In this document: in pieces, positions 59,032 to 64,000 of the stretch
Layout of the letters: each line of letters begins with the position of its first letter
Position numbering within the stretch: position 1 is the stretch's first letter
Assembly (NCBI GenBank): GCA_030706745.1
Contig: JAUZNX010000007.1
Span: 124,001-188,000 of the forward strand
DNA from: Bacteroidota bacterium
Lineage (GTDB): Bacteria; Bacteroidota; Ignavibacteria; Palsa-1295
Direction: 5' to 3'
Length of the DNA stretch: 64,000 nucleotides
Position numbers and translations under genes: made by a program
Notes under the pieces: model-generated
What the model was told of the DNA's origin: nothing
What the model saw: only the letters and a program-made list of their open reading frames with translations
Database searches by the model: none

Positions 59032-60807
59032 TTAGAATTGTACCCCAATCGAAGACTCCAGCAGTGACTCGCGGAATGACTCGCCGGGTCGAGTGCCGCC
59101 ATACGTAAAGCCAGTCGTGGTGCCCGTCATCCGCAATGTGATTTGCTTTGCAATCTGCCATTTCAGCCCCGCGCGCAACTGTCGCTGGATGTCGGGACTG
59201 AATGCGATCGCCGGAGTTTTCGTCGTCCCCTCGGAATAGGTCGCTTGCGCGATCGGAGTAAGTTTGATGTCTGCGAGCGCGTAGTCGAGTTCGAGCGTCA
59301 TCGAATTGATCGTGAGATCCGCGCTCGGCAAATGATTCAGAAGGCTCGAAACGATAAACGTCGTCGAAAGCGGAATGGCCGACCATGACGCGGAATACAA
59401 GCCCTGGATATTCCGCGTATTATTCGATGCCAAAGCGCCAGTGATCGTGTTGTAATCGTTGAAAACGTCCAACGAGTATGTCACGCTGATATTGTGCGTG
59501 CCTGTGCTGCCGGTGAGCACATACGTTGGCGTAACCGAAAATGAGTTGGCGACGCTCTGAATCTTCAGCGTGTCGTTCGTCTCCGAATTCTTCACGCCAA
59601 AGTTCGCGAACTGCCCGCTGATCGAGAATGCGTCACTGAACGTCGCAAGAGCGGTGGCCGAGCCAATAATCTGCGTCGATGTCGCGGCCTTGGTCTGGCT
59701 GAGATTATTGACGCGATATCCAAGCGAAGCGTTGAGCGCCAAGCCACCACTAAACAACGCGACACGTGGCGCAACGAGAAACTCTAGTCTGTCCGGCGTC
59801 AAGTACGGATAGCCGGGTGTGACGAATCCGGCGCCAATATACTTGCCGCTGGTCTTAATGCCCCAGGTCTTCTCTTTCCAATCGATGACGAGTGTACCGG
59901 CGACATCCGCGCGGGTCGAGATTCGTTGCGCGAGAATCGATTGTGGAATAATACCACCTCCGATATCAACGCTCGTCGAGTTGAGATCCATTGTAAAGCC
60001 CGAGACCGCTGCCTCGCCAGTAATCCGCAGAGCATCCATTGCCTGAATTCCAAAATTCATGCTTGCAAGTGCTCCCTCTTGCGCCTGAGGTGCGGTCGAA
60101 TCGCTCTTGGGTATTAGGATCGAGTTTGGATCGTCCTTCATTCGCAAGAGATTAATTGCAAAGCAACTGGAATCGGGATTGCCGAAGCCAATCTTCGCCA
60201 TGGAGAGCGTGCGAGCATACGCACCCTTGATGCCGTGCGCGGAATCTGGTTCAATCGCGCGCTGCGCGATGCCGGTGGATGCAGCCAACTCGAACTTGCC
60301 GGGAGTGAGATCGAATCCCCCGCCGAAGATTTGCTGATCGCCTGTCGAAAGCTCGGAATACATTGGCGTGTGCGTGCCGATAAATGCCTTGGCCCAACCG
60401 ATCTTGGGCGAGAAGCTAATGAAGCCAAGATTGTTCAGCGGGTTTTCGATGAATTGCACGAACGTCGGATTCGGAACGGATGACGTGATAAAATTCGTCT
60501 CCCGTGAGGAGAGCTGAATGTTGAATGGTAGCGAGATGTAATCGCCGATCGTGATCGTGGGAGCGAACACGAGGCGTGTGAGATTTGGAGGACGGCGCGG
60601 TACTTCGATACCGTCCGGAGTCGTTTTGAAATCATAGATATCCTCCGAAAGCGTCACCGTGCCGGAAACGGCGACGAATGGTGTTTGCGCGCTATCATGC
60701 TGTGCAAAGATCGATAAGGGCGTGATCAATAGGAACGCCAGCGCATTCAAAATAAAGAAGACAGCACCACGCAAGCGCCTAGGCGCAACGGTCAAACGAA
60801 TTAGCAT
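59032..60807 (-). CDS. Outer-membrane beta-barrel protein of the giant-protein operon
   Basis: A 591-residue exported protein. The N-terminus is basic then hydrophobic (RGAVFFILNALAFLLITPLS) with cleavage near IFAQ. The mature part alternates polar/apolar beta strands (LALNASLGYRVNNLSQTKAA, NISVTYSLDVFNDYNTITGA, LTPIAQATYSEGTTK) and ends ESSIGVQF with a C-terminal Phe, the classical barrel signal for BAM. I use the ATG at 60805-60807. It is the first gene of a three-gene set: barrel, giant protein, FnIII protein, with 16-bp and 9-bp gaps. It could be a secretion or anchoring channel for the giant protein, which is inference. Confidence 0.82.
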   Translation of the reverse strand: MLIRLTVAPRRLRGAVFFILNALAFLLITPLSIFAQHDSAQTPFVAVSGTVTLSEDIYDFKTTPDGIEVPRRPPNLTRLVFAPTITIGDYISLPFNIQLSSRETNFITSSVPNPTFVQFIENPLNNLGFISFSPKIGWAKAFIGTHTPMYSELSTGDQQIFGGGFDLTPGKFELAASTGIAQRAIEPDSAHGIKGAYARTLSMAKIGFGNPDSSCFAINLLRMKDDPNSILIPKSDSTAPQAQEGALASMNFGIQAMDALRITGEAAVSGFTMDLNSTSVDIGGGIIPQSILAQRISTRADVAGTLVIDWKEKTWGIKTSGKYIGAGFVTPGYPYLTPDRLEFLVAPRVALFSGGLALNASLGYRVNNLSQTKAATSTQIIGSATALATFSDAFSISGQFANFGVKNSETNDTLKIQSVANSFSVTPTYVLTGSTGTHNISVTYSLDVFNDYNTITGALASNNTRNIQGLYSASWSAIPLSTTFIVSSLLNHLPSADLTINSMTLELDYALADIKLTPIAQATYSEGTTKTPAIAFSPDIQRQLRAGLKWQIAKQITLRMTGTTTGFTYGGTRPGESFRESLLESSIGVQF

Positions 60808-61150
60808 GTCTGGCAAAGCCGCAGTCAACTCAGCGAATCATATCCAAGGGTGGGCGACGGTGAGCCCACAACTCCGGGCCTTTGACCTCTTAATCGAAGC
60901 GAACTTCCAACAATTCAGATTCGATCGTCAAAAATATGCACGACAAACTAACCTCGGAAGCTGAGGAGACGTGCCCGTATGTATCAAGAGTGTAGGATAG
61001 CTATTCTGGCACACTGATCCTTAGCAGGCACTTCATGCCCGACCCTCCGCTATTCCCGTAAGCTATTGCCAGCAAAGAGTTTGTGGAATTCGTAGATTTG
61101 GATGGCAACAATATTGCAACAAGTGCGAGAGTTGTGATCAAGAAGGTGAT
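60808..61150. other. Intergenic region upstream of the barrel operon
   Basis: 343 bp with no gene. It should hold the promoter of the barrel-giant-FnIII operon (minus strand). A small hairpin GTGGGC-GACGGTGA-GCCCAC lies at about 60850-60869. Nothing else recognised. Confidence 0.5.
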
Positions 61151-61762
61151 TCAGGCTGCCATCGCCGTGTAGATACTCCGTCCCTCGCCCTGATAAGACT
61201 CGTAAATGTGAAGATACACCTGTTCGCACTTCTTCTGCCAGACGGGCGAAGTGCATGTGCGTGGCAATTGATCGAGCACTTCCTCGATTGTCTTGCGAAC
61301 TGCGGAGCTGGTTGCCTGCTTCTTCTTCCAGTCAAGCACTAACTGTTGCCCCTTGAGCTTGCCCAAGAGTTCTTTGGCAACGAGCTTCACTTCTTTCGCT
61401 TCCTTTTCGCTCAACTCCATTTCCGGTTTTGTCAGGAGATCGAAGATCGTCATTTCTTCTTCGGAGAGTCCTCCGCGGCGGGCGCGTTTGCCCTCCGCAT
61501 CGAGATTCTGCATGAAGTCCTTGAGCGCGTCAAATGTCTCCTCCATGTTATGCGCTCTTGTGTCATAGTCGTCGAGCATCTGCTGGAATTTCTCCAGAAA
61601 ACCCATGCGCGCAGAGTTCTCCGCAATCATCTTCTGCAACGCCTGTTCGACAGAGCATTTCATCAGTTCGATCTCAGCCCGTTTGGTCTTGCTCTGCTGG
61701 GAAGAAACCGAGCTCGCCTCGAAGGGATCTACGAAAGCTTGTGACAGATCGAGTCGCATCAT
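61151..61762 (-). pseudogene. hsdR: C-terminal fragment of type I restriction subunit HsdR (DUF3387 region)
   Basis: A 203-codon frame corresponding to the end of HsdR only. ALKDFMQNLDAEGKRARRGG, LSEEEMTIFDLLTKPEMELS, LVLDWKKKQATSSAVRKTIE, EVLDQLPRTC and QKKCEQVYLHIYESYQGEG match the DUF3387 C-terminal domain. The nuclease and helicase parts (about 800 residues) are absent, and no hsdM or hsdS is nearby. The first codons have no convincing ribosome binding site. It is best read as the relic of a type I system, truncated at its 5' side near 61763. Confidence 0.8.
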
Positions 61763-61980
61763 CCAGTGCTACGCGAGACGAAGTCACTCTCCGCGCATTA
61801 GCGATGGCGATGCTACCATTATAGAAGGTCGGAGAACTCCTGTGCATTATTGAGAATATGGTTCAAAATCACTCGCAAATCGCTCGGATTCACCTTAACT
61901 TACCGCCGGGTACTCCCATGCATCACATCCTTTCATAGAAGTGTAACATGCTTTTTCAGGAAGCTGAAGTAAATTACTAA

Positions 61981-62028
61981 TTGGGGGATTTCTGGGGGTT
62001 GAACCTTCCTGGTCTCCTGCTATGTTTG
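61981..62028 (+). promoter_or_regulatory. Array promoter A with double G-run element
   Basis: TTGGGGGATTTCTGGGGG, then TTGAA at 61999-62003, 17 bp, and TATGTTTG at 62021-62028. The last two blocks match the Bacteroidota -33/-7 consensus (TTG...TAnnTTTG). It lies 276 bp upstream of the first LuxR-type gene. First of four copies. Confidence 0.75.
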
Positions 62029-62040
62029 TAGCGGCTCTTA

Positions 62041-62074
62041 CGCAAACGTGTCCCACCCCCAGACACGTGATGCG
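62041..62074 (+). promoter_or_regulatory. Hairpin at the expected transcript start of promoter A
   Basis: ACGTGTC (62046-62052) pairs with GACACGT (62062-62068), extended by CGCA/TGCG (62041-62044 and 62071-62074). It begins 12 bp after the -7 element and so would be at or near the 5' end of the RNA. The 270-nt leader that follows also contains ACATGG-AC-CCATGT near 62130. Confidence 0.55.
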
Positions 62075-62304
62075 AAGGAACTGACCGAAGCTCCGAACGG
62101 AGGAGTCAAGACTCTTATCCGCATCGCGACATGGACCCATGTGTTGCGATCGTGTTCGGGGACTTTGTTTTCCGTCAATATCTCGGCCACCTTGTAGAAG
62201 GCACAAAACCGCGACGCTCTTGAAGGAGCGGATCCAGCGGCCAATAGAGCTCGTAATCGGTGAGCCGGGAGTACACTTCTCTACCTAACAAAGGAACACC
62301 GTAC

Positions 62305-62790
62305 ATGTTGAAACAACTGACGCTTGTGGCAGCGAGCGTATTACTGTGCCCGATTGCGGCGCGAACCGACACCGGCAGCCGTGGGATACGAACGGGCAAT
62401 CTCGTGAACGCTCAAACTAGCGTCTCCGATGGACGTTTTGAACCGTGGAGGCCGAGTCCGACTCGGTCAAAACGACGTCACCGGAAACGCCACCTCGCGT
62501 GGGAACAGGCAGAACTTGCAGCAGATGGACTCTATGCCCACAATCTTCAGGATCTCGAAGCACGATTTCCACGGCTGACTCCGATGGAGCTACGCGTCTG
62601 TGCGCTTGCCAAAGCGATGCTTCCCAGCTGGAAAATCGGTGAGATCCTTGGAATTTGCGAAAAGACTGTCGAGAATCACTTGCGTGATACGCGGCTGAAA
62701 CTGGGACTCCCTCCCGGAACGCGGCTGCACCATCTTCTCTCCAGCGACGGTCTCTCGGTTGAGGTCGCTCCCGTAAAAGAAAAAAGTTAG
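62305..62790 (+). CDS. LuxR-type HTH regulator 1 of the array
   Basis: A 161-residue regulator. The C-terminal half is a GerE/LuxR helix-turn-helix (about 88-137): LTPMELRVCALAKAMLPSWK, IGEILGICEKTVENHLR, LKLGLPPG. A conserved segment before it (HLAWEQAELAADGLYAHNLQ, DLEARFPR) is shared with the second copy and may be an oligomerisation helix. There is no receiver domain. The N-terminal 20 residues (LKQLTLVAASVLLCPIAAR) are hydrophobic like a signal or membrane anchor, unusual for a DNA-binding protein. The ATG at 62305 follows AAAGGA by 10 bp; a GTG at 62260 is in frame without one. Promoter A lies 276 bp upstream. DNA target unknown; the array elements are candidates. Confidence 0.8.
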   Translation: MLKQLTLVAASVLLCPIAARTDTGSRGIRTGNLVNAQTSVSDGRFEPWRPSPTRSKRRHRKRHLAWEQAELAADGLYAHNLQDLEARFPRLTPMELRVCALAKAMLPSWKIGEILGICEKTVENHLRDTRLKLGLPPGTRLHHLLSSDGLSVEVAPVKEKS

Positions 62791-62803
62791 TCTCATCCAA
62801 CAA

Positions 62804-62851
62804 TTAGGGGATTTTAAGGGGGTTCAATTCCTCTCAAATCCCGTAGCTTTG
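62804..62851 (+). promoter_or_regulatory. Array promoter B with double G-run element
   Basis: TTAGGGGATTTTAAGGGGG, then TTCAA at 62823-62827, 16 bp, and TAGCTTTG at 62844-62851. It begins 13 bp after the stop of LuxR gene 1 and lies 310 bp upstream of LuxR gene 2. It is the most diverged of the four copies. Confidence 0.7.
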
Positions 62852-62853
62852 CC

Positions 62854-62888
62854 ATTGCTCCAACGCACCTCTCGTGCGTTGGAGCAAT
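62854..62888 (+). promoter_or_regulatory. 15-bp perfect hairpin at the expected start of transcript B
   Basis: 62854-62868 (ATTGCTCCAACGCAC) pairs perfectly with 62874-62888 around a CTCTC loop. It starts 2 bp after the -7 element, so it covers the expected transcription start, and could act as an operator or a protective 5' RNA hairpin. The rest of the leader to 63161 contains two more hairpins (TGTGTGAC/GTCACACA near 62937-62968 and CCCGGC/GCCGGG near 63103-63118). Confidence 0.6.
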
Positions 62889-63161
62889 TTCGCAGGCATT
62901 CGCATCGCAGGTAGGGATCGAGGAGAGCATCCCGATGTGTGTGACGCAATGTTTGGTCTAAGTCACACAGTCCATTTCGATCGCGCGAGGAATCGAGTGA
63001 ACGTGCTGAGTAGGACATCGCTCCGTTCATCGCGATAACGTTCAAGCAGCAGTTATCATGATGCAGGGCGGCAGTGGCTGCTCGACTCTCGAATGTGTGA
63101 ACCCCGGCGCATGCCGGGCGTACTGCAATCTATTATAATCAGGAAATATTCAGGAGGATTC

Positions 63162-63641
63162 GTGTACCATAGTAGTATCGAGGGAGAGGACGTCACCCAG
63201 CAGAATCACGATCCGGGAGGATCGAACTCACAGCCAGAGCTTCTGCAGAATTACCGCACCATGACACCGGGGACATTGGTGTCAATGACTCCTCGCAGAT
63301 CAGCGATTCAGCGGCGGCACCATCGGCGAAATCTCGATTGGGAACAAGTGGACCTTGCATCGAATGGTCTCTATGCACGCAATCTCGAAGAACTCGAAGC
63401 ACGGTTTCCTGCGCTGAGTCTAATGGAGCTTCGCGTTTGCGCGCTCGCAAAGGCGATGCTTACCTCTTCCATGATCGCGGAGTTGCTCGGCATTTGTACG
63501 AAGACCGTTGAGAATCACCTACGCAGTGTACGAATCAAACTCGGCCTTCCACCTGGCACGAAGTTGCACACCGTCTTTTCCACACGTGCAGATCCTGTTG
63601 ATAAAAAAAATGCCAGCATTCAAATCTTGGGGGATTATTAG
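63162..63641 (+). CDS. LuxR-type HTH regulator 2 of the array
   Basis: A 159-residue paralogue of the regulator at 62305. The shared block runs from about residue 48 (RSAIQRRHHRRNLDWEQVDL, GLYARNLEELEARFPALS) through the LuxR HTH at about 82-129 (LMELRVCALAKAMLTSSMIA, ELLGICTKTVENHLRSVR, IKLGLPPGTK). The N-terminal 45 residues are polar and unrelated to copy 1. The start is the GTG at 63162-63164, set by a strong AGGAGG at 63152-63157; an upstream GTG-type extension to 63093 lacks one. Promoter C overlaps its 3' end: the stop codon TAG (63639-63641) lies inside the G-run element. Confidence 0.85.
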   Translation: MYHSSIEGEDVTQQNHDPGGSNSQPELLQNYRTMTPGTLVSMTPRRSAIQRRHHRRNLDWEQVDLASNGLYARNLEELEARFPALSLMELRVCALAKAMLTSSMIAELLGICTKTVENHLRSVRIKLGLPPGTKLHTVFSTRADPVDKKNASIQILGDY

Positions 63642-63674
63642 GGGTTGAATTGCCGTGGCTACCGCGTAAGTTCG
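63627..63674 (+). promoter_or_regulatory. Array promoter C, overlapping the end of LuxR gene 2
   Basis: TTGGGGGATTATTAGGGG, then TTGAA at 63645-63649, 17 bp, and TAAGTTCG at 63667-63674. The G-run element encodes the last four residues and stop of LuxR 2. It reads into a 220-bp stretch without a clear gene. A weak hairpin CGTTG/CAGCG lies at 63693-63708. Confidence 0.7.
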
Positions 63675-63897
63675 CATTCGTTATTACGCGAGCGTTGCAC
63701 ACACAGCGAACGCGATCTAACAGGGACAACAAACACCTTCTTGCCTCTCCTCTGCGGATCATTGATCTTCACCGAGAGGGAAGTCACACATTGGCAAACG
63801 AACTAACCGGCCGGGCACTTCACTCTCACCGGGTGCCCGGCCAGTGATATAGACCTTCGACAGCGAAGAAGATGAAAAAAAATGAAGCGAACGAAAA
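63675..63897 (+). other. Non-coding unit between promoters C and D, candidate small RNA
   Basis: No credible ORF. It contains a GC-rich hairpin, GGCCGGGCAC (63809-63818) with GTGCCCGGCC (63833-63842), 10 bp stem and 14-nt loop. A transcript from promoter C to this hairpin would be about 165 nt. The hairpin is not followed by a T-run, so the 3' end is a guess. Confidence 0.4.
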
Positions 63898-63945
63898 TTG
63901 GGGGATTATTAGGGGTTGAAGGCTCCGATCAACGCTGTAAGTTTG
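63898..63945 (+). promoter_or_regulatory. Array promoter D, nearly identical to C
   Basis: TTGGGGGATTATTAGGGG, then TTGAA at 63916-63920, 17 bp, and TAAGTTTG at 63938-63945. The G-run element is identical to copy C. A hairpin CGCAC-ATCTTA-GTGCG flanked by CGTT/AACG (63950-63977) follows. The unit it drives lies beyond the window. Confidence 0.75.
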
Positions 63946-64000
63946 CATTCGTTATCACGCACATCTTAGTGCGAACGGAACGAGCCGAAAATCCGGAACA

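Follow-up and report, generated by a model that had tools for sequence, protein, structure and literature searches.

Four promoter-like blocks (A to D) stand in tandem at the right end of the window, by which we mean the whole 64,000-nucleotide stretch analysed here (G000:C7:124001-188000, from a genome of 3.81 Mb in 30 contigs), and are interleaved with genes for short LuxR-type helix-turn-helix (HTH) proteins. The blocks are likely to be activator sites resembling those of MalT, at which short LuxR proteins encoded in the same cluster switch on themselves together with adjoining genes for surface or secreted products. Each block would be an activator-dependent promoter: the short LuxR-type protein encoded directly upstream most likely binds both of its G-rich half-sites as a tandem pair and, once bound, would help the principal sigma factor by replacing a good -33 element, as MalT does at its boxes. 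The modules appear to form a chain that runs from a LuxR remnant through block A, LuxR-A, block B, LuxR-B and blocks C/D, and that ends at an operon of pilin-, chaperone- and usher-like genes with a DUF805b leader RNA.

The blocks lie at the four places given in an earlier note on this DNA, and the spacings of 823 and 823 bp were confirmed, with 271 bp from C to D. Two G half-sites are found one helical turn apart in each block, the second covering the -33 region, and the blocks would act, as had been supposed, as regulated promoters whose operator consists of these two half-sites. The near-identity ascribed to them holds for the G core and the -7 box; the 16-17 bp spacers differ among blocks, and B is 72% identical to A. 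The 23-bp core is the same in C and D and 3 positions off in A, and that of B goes unmatched at up to 3 mismatches; the 3 core matches found at this tolerance compare with an expectation of 0.00 over 100 shuffles. Copy A does not fit the G-run consensus first proposed, having either C instead of T after ATTN or 3 rather than 4 bases before five Gs. The -7 box TAnnTTTG, which had been matched to the Bacteroidota sigma consensus, can be read in the sequence of A, B and D, with TAAGTTCG in its place in C. Blocks A and B each lead into a LuxR-type (GerE) gene, LuxR-A and LuxR-B respectively, as described. An alignment of unit A with unit B needs 22 gap columns per side, and the repeated 823 bp is the result of cancelling indels, not of a conserved unit length. 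Two other kinds of element were rejected: a consensus scan of L007:5700-8700 (locus L007 continues past the window) lists no canonical sigma-70 promoters on the + strand, and G-quadruplexes were dismissed by reasoning, each block having only two G-runs.

Table 1. Features of the block array and its right flank. Positions are those of the window, except for the operon, which is given in positions of locus L007.
Feature	Position	Strand	Remarks
LuxR (GerE) remnant	61771..61938	+	degraded, with in-frame TAG; its end lies 45 nt upstream of the block A G core
Block A	61981..62028	+	G-run half-sites TTGGGGGATTTCTGGGGGTTGAA; -7 box TATGTTTG
LuxR-A	62260..62790	+	short LuxR/NarL-type HTH protein; 176 aa from GTG, alternative start ATG at 62305
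Block B	62804..62851	+	half-sites TTAGGGGATTTTAAGGGGGTTCAA; -7 box TAGCTTTG; G core starts 17 nt past the LuxR-A stop
15-pair hairpin	62854..62888	+	predicted 5' end of transcript B; fold z -5.6
LuxR-B	63093..63641	+	short LuxR-type protein; 182 aa; stop codon inside block C
Block C	63627..63674	+	half-sites TTGGGGGATTATTAGGGGTTGAA; -7 box TAAGTTCG; overlaps the LuxR-B stop
12-pair hairpin	63809..63842	+	between blocks C and D; no T-run after it
Block D	63898..63945	+	23-bp core as in C, TAAGTTTG; last predicted promoter block before the operon
DUF805b leader RNA (Rfam RF02914)	63975..64000, on to 64009 beyond the window	+	36.0 bits
Operon past the window	L007:8656-14091		DUF4402 pilin-like genes, chaperone-like gene, usher-like gene

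The proteins encoded between the blocks belong to the LuxR/NarL (GerE) transcription factors by their HTH domain. LuxR-A scores 26.9 bits against Pfam GerE and LuxR-B 23.4, just under the cut-off of 23.5 bits. GerE is the sole Pfam family above cut-off, and neither the autoinducer-binding domain of quorum-sensing LuxR nor further ATPase or TPR-like domains were found in these proteins of 176 and 182 aa. A structural model of the LuxR protein has the GerE-type HTH preceded by two helices, with a mean predicted local distance difference test (pLDDT) score of 69 and a low-confidence N-terminus (block averages of 44-59 over residues 1-70). Searched with Foldseek, this model retrieved StyR, NarL, DosR and GerE at a probability of 1.00, the best E-value being 0.027 and none below 0.001; LuxR-A had no sequence match in the PDB. 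The remnant upstream of block A matches LuxR-A in a protein search (E 1.2e-11, 52% identity over 56 aa). By eye, a hydrophobic, signal-peptide-like start was seen in LuxR-A (62305-62370) and in the LuxR proteins of G005:C245 and G005:C321, which is unusual for transcription factors and could reflect membrane anchoring or a wrongly chosen start. The remnant is adjoined by a 203-aa open reading frame (ORF; 61151-61762, - strand) with a T1RH-like_C match (1.2e-20) that covers the C-terminal part of the type I restriction enzyme family only; it is possibly a restriction-system leftover.

The link between regulator and block was examined in a census of 20 short LuxR genes. Seventeen are close relatives from a sample of 7 genomes of the genus (own genome: C7, two genes, C8 and C10; G001:C6; G002:C103 and C99; G003:C13; G004:C16, two genes; G005:C288, three genes, C245, C67 and C321; G006:C44), and three are from other genera of the same family (G326, G332:C131 and G353:C24). 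Two genes in G213:C5 and those in G353:C22, G002:C144 and G002:C175 were viewed separately. The survey took in short LuxR genes, leaving out the long GerE proteins from the protein searches, and also G332:C160, where the contig runs out before the LuxR gene is complete. An element follows the LuxR stop in 19/20 genes (16/17 in the genus, 3/3 in other genera) at a distance of -11 to +180 nt, 17 of the 19 lying within 75 nt and the other two at 104 and 180 nt; those of G000:C10, G001 and G006 were placed by eye. By our reading, the G006 stop codon falls inside the operator, as does that of LuxR-B. The geometry is constant in the 13 elements, from the 17 genus genes, that were used to train a position weight matrix (PWM): the G-rich half-sites stand 10-12 bp apart, and TAnnTTTG follows 25-26 bp after the start of the second. 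The matrix was then scored against DUF805b-centred stretches of other families (L053-L082), a background distinct from random genome sequence, where its maximum was 18.7 over 175,304 positions. Just downstream of short LuxR genes of three other genera it reached 34.8 (G326), 31.2 (G353:C24), 25.9 (G332:C131) and 28.8 (G213:C5:747966); 4/6 testable short LuxR genes of other genera thus exceed the background maximum, and 0/1176 background windows of 150 nt reach the scores of G326, G353:C24 and G332:C131.

HTH similarity and operator similarity are correlated across 15 of the 17 genus regulators (Spearman Mantel r 0.39, p 0.001, 4000 permutations), with G005:C288_2 left out for want of a good -7 box and G005:C245 for want of an element; the training set of the matrix further omitted G000:C10 and G001:C6. 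Spacer similarity served as a control and did not follow the HTH (Mantel r -0.12, p 0.84). Judged by this control, descent alone does not seem to preserve the rest of the promoter.

The block also recurs beyond the window. Within the genus, a strict block pattern found 13 distinct sites, which fall in 3/7 genomes and include 4 in the window's own, against 1 for the reversed pattern; most of the 13 adjoin short LuxR genes. A relaxed regular expression gave 20 matches versus 1 in reversed sequence over 15 loci (422,772 bases) chosen mostly for their LuxR genes; it missed the elements of G000:C10, G002:C103 and G006, and one match (L049, - strand) lies away from a LuxR gene. By this comparison the blocks are conserved elements.

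Several observations weigh against the activator reading. Within the genus, G005:C245 has no element, G005:C288_2 lacks a good -7 box, and the elements of G000:C10 and G001 are weak, the PWM score of 14.7 for G001 being reached by 4/1176 background windows. The divergent LuxR genes G353:C22 (15.6) and G213:C5:1665272 (11.4) fall below the background maximum, and no element was found near the distant short GerE proteins of G002:C144 and C175. The nearest LuxR protein has the nearest operator for only 6/15 genes, and shared descent may contribute to the correlation, an objection that the spacer control answers only in part. Outside the genus, the class search (149 genomes, 142 of them outside) returned 20 strict-pattern matches versus 16 for the reversed control by our count of the table, and there is therefore no enrichment of the strict pattern there. 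Some blocks, moreover, stand apart from any regulator: the pair in G005:C105 precedes DUF4402 genes on a 6,989-base contig with no LuxR match, a second block in G005:C321 lies 1.7 kb from the first without an adjoining LuxR gene, and one in G005:C69, which by eye overlaps the beginning of an SMC-like ORF, is perhaps a chance match. At the divergent gene G213:C5:1665272, a GTGAG direct repeat of the same geometry precedes TAACTTTG about 70 nt past the LuxR match (L158, - strand, G213:C5 near 1665200), perhaps another operator specificity.

Blocks such as the G005:C105 pair would be expected if the G-run element were recognised by another factor, either a global regulator or an alternative sigma, with the LuxR genes as mere adjoining co-targets. 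A DUF805b copy at G005:C198 that follows an extracytoplasmic function (ECF) sigma-like gene instead of a LuxR gene points the same way, and we infer binding by LuxR proteins from sequence. Against this stand the regular position of the element behind the LuxR stop, its variation with the HTH, and a -7 box that is the principal sigma factor's according to the available part of PMC7366714. We consider recognition by another factor improbable.

The same placement of the operator bears on the sign of regulation. Were the LuxR proteins to bind and repress, the result would be negative autoregulation that silences the pilus-like operon, and the operator does overlap the -33 region, where repressors act too. 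Contact with the polymerase would better explain the constant phasing at 25-26 bp and why TTG is so often missing at -33, and in the consulted portion of PMC7567727 MalT acts as an activator at its boxes; repression is thus unlikely in our estimate. The -33 argument is a weak one: because no -33 motif was identifiable in F. johnsoniae (PMC7366714, in part), a missing TTG says little in favour of activation, a further point that tells against the activator reading.

Tandem pairs of blocks were found at three loci, namely C/D in the window and pairs 173 bp apart in G005:C288 and 168 bp apart in G005:C105. The members of each pair resemble one another in G core, -7 box and the opening bases of the predicted transcript but differ in the spacer; such a combination points to selection, not to recent copying. 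This matters for the proposal that the array is a recent amplification or a phase-variable cassette in which recombination takes place at the blocks, an idea encouraged by direct repeats that flank regulator genes and by the presence of a degraded copy. However, LuxR-A and LuxR-B are only 59-63% identical, the units differ by many indels, the spacers are dissimilar, and homologous modules occur in several genera. No inverted-repeat pair of at least 20 nt was found in 60000-64000, and the 3 imperfect pairs (20-24 nt, 75-85%) in L007:5500-14000 have no arm inside any block. Both versions of the idea, raised in the earlier note, are largely refuted and seem to us very improbable.

A further proposal, compatible with activation by LuxR proteins, is that block C drives a non-coding RNA of about 170 nt that ends near the 63809-63842 hairpin and regulates the operon, in which case C would not serve as a second promoter of the operon. 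The stretch 63740-63875 folds at z -3.1, with 0/200 shuffles equally stable, and the recurrence of paired blocks at a similar distance in G005:C288 and G005:C105 would fit. The hairpin is not followed by a T-run, and only one of the two other inter-block stretches folds unusually well (z -2.8 and -0.8), which leaves such an RNA with a small chance. For the same lack of a T-run, we rejected the idea that a canonical intrinsic terminator separates C from D; our terminator scan took loops of 3-8 only, and this hairpin lay outside its reach. More generally, the predicted transcripts begin with unusually stable 5' hairpins: the mean z is -1.24 over 25 of 26 leaders (that of G001 being too short), 19 of which are below 0, versus a mean of 0.10 in 50 downstream control stretches (one-sided p 0.0007), and the four window leaders are among the strongest folds.

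The array had been expected to continue rightward past the window. Instead, neither a further LuxR gene nor a further block was found by protein search and block pattern as far as L007:19000, which is 11 kb past the window, and block D is followed by the DUF805b RNA, which passes the RF02914 gathering score of 35.6, and the pilus-like operon. The gene order there is a doubtful 132-aa ORF, two DUF4402 proteins above the Pfam cut-off, a chaperone-like protein (PapD_N E 0.053, below cut-off; no PDB match by phmmer) and a 932-aa protein that we read as usher-like, to which no usher family in Pfam or NCBIfam gave a match. Directly after the block-D DUF805b RNA, a three-codon ORF (ATG TTT TTG TAA, L007:8023-8034) occupies approximately the position where, at other DUF805b copies, the start codon of a gene is found.

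Target genes vary from locus to locus. DUF4402 genes follow the module in the window's operon and in G005:C245 and C105, and a YadA-head protein in G005:C321. In G000:C8 (L050:7495-10034, - strand) the LuxR/DUF805b module precedes a radical-SAM methyltransferase of the kind associated with ribosomally synthesised and post-translationally modified peptides (RiPPs; rSAM_ocin_1, 3.3e-135), together with a 162-aa protein whose weak NHLP-like precursor match is below cut-off. The module also precedes DUF2589 proteins (G002:C99), a tyrosinase (G004:C16) and proteases that are either trypsin-like (G004:C16, G353) or papain-like (G326), and the ORF after the module in G003:C13 had no family match.

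DUF805b accompanies the module closely within the genus, where 9 copies occur in 6/7 genomes. Eight of these have a short LuxR gene upstream, 6 of them within 350 nt of it and those of G002:C103 and G006:C44 about 2.0 and 1.5 kb past it with a gene between; the ninth (G005:C198:18601, L124), behind the ECF-sigma-like gene, is a stronger match than any other copy in the genus. In the phylum sample, 92/296 genomes gave a DUF805b match, 59 over the cut-off. A phylum-wide pairing with LuxR was rejected: by eye, a GerE-type ORF ends within 900 nt upstream in only 2 of the 30 loci read (L053-L082, with little upstream sequence for L053), namely L074 and L079. At 21/30 of these loci an ORF of at least 90 aa starts 26-45 nt after the start of the DUF805b AGAGTAGG tail; the genes that follow are varied, some standing, by eye, beside C39-like transporter ORFs. 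A pseudoknot-like pairing between the DUF805b loop and 3' tail was also seen, with the outer pair Watson-Crick in 42/44 distinct copies versus 19.9 expected under independence, the regular expression having fixed the two inner pairs. The pairing is missing from the Rfam structure line and is thus not a curated feature.

Given the likeness of the four operators, we would expect the LuxR proteins to switch on the operon as well as their own array, which would amount to positive feedback graded by copy number; DUF805b could add a post-transcriptional step. The self-regulating tandem family suggested at the outset is a fair reading, best widened to self- and cross-regulation, as throughout the family the blocks go together with LuxR paralogues. 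A broader proposal, which we offer only tentatively, is that of a portable, family-wide module: a sensorless mini-LuxR gene with its own tandem-half-site promoter, often with a DUF805b leader, placed before unrelated genes for surface or secreted products. Such a module would multiply into self-amplifying chains and acquire new specificities through co-drift of HTH and half-sites at fixed geometry and, if the proposal is true, would provide a natural set of orthogonal activator-promoter pairs. The parts are of known kinds. We did not find their combination (a sensorless LuxR, an adjoining tandem-half-site promoter and a DUF805b leader, arrayed and matched in specificity) in the open-licence literature, which does not establish its absence from print; nor did that literature yield anything on DUF805b RNA or on LuxR with DUF4402. 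Through this analysis DUF805b, a cis-regulatory RNA that had been an orphan in Rfam, is placed in the context of a promoter and a regulator. The sensorless LuxR proteins, an uncharacterised group, receive an operator that can be tested, and the natural diversity of the regulator-operator pairs makes it possible to read off HTH specificity and to test it. Neither the unit of regulator followed by operator nor the last block leading into DUF805b and the pilus-like operon was visible from the window alone.

A comparison with known systems places these features in context. The predicted block-D transcript carries a DUF805b match above the RF02914 gathering score, and in the genus and some relatives this RNA is tied to short LuxR genes and a G-box promoter. 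A possible likeness to chaperone-usher pili rests on the two DUF4402 pilin-like proteins, the chaperone being marginal and the usher without a family match. For promoters of Bacteroidota sigma-ABfr, the available part of PMC7366714 gives TAnnTTTG at -7 and TTTG at -33 in B. fragilis. As a motif reading, blocks A, B and D share this -7 box, and C has TAAGTTCG; they differ in that the second G half-site takes the place of the -33 box.

EcpR is a LuxR-type regulator. In type 3 fimbriae the LuxR-like MrkI is an activator of the operon to which it belongs, mrkHI (PMC10513181, in part), and the arrangement seen here shares with MrkI and EcpR a LuxR-like regulator tied to a pilus operon, in this case a pilus-like one. 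The consulted part of PMC10513181 describes no tandem arrays that combine a copied operator with a DUF805b leader. The module studied here differs further in that it also precedes RiPP, protease, DUF2589 and YadA-like genes.

MalT belongs to the LuxR family, and MalT/LAL regulators are large multidomain proteins with further ATPase and TPR-like domains. As far as the consulted part of PMC7567727 goes, MalT is an ATP-dependent activator (E. coli, Klebsiella, Actinoplanes) whose box GGGGA(T/G)GAGG starts near -35 and so lies partly over the -35 region, and a title in the reference list of that paper refers to two MalT sites in direct repeat. The likeness extends to the LuxR-type HTH and, judged from the predicted sites, to the G-rich asymmetric boxes, their position at about -35 and the two direct-repeat sites. 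The proteins of the present group differ in their size of 95-182 aa, with no sensor domain found, and in their half-sites, GGGGTTTT and GGGGTKGA. The geometry of the sites, here predicted from sequence, agrees with that of MalT (10-12 bp apart, 25-26 bp before the -7 box), although the consensus is not MalT's. It is because of the parallels with MalT and MrkI that we would expect each mini-LuxR to activate the promoter adjoining it.

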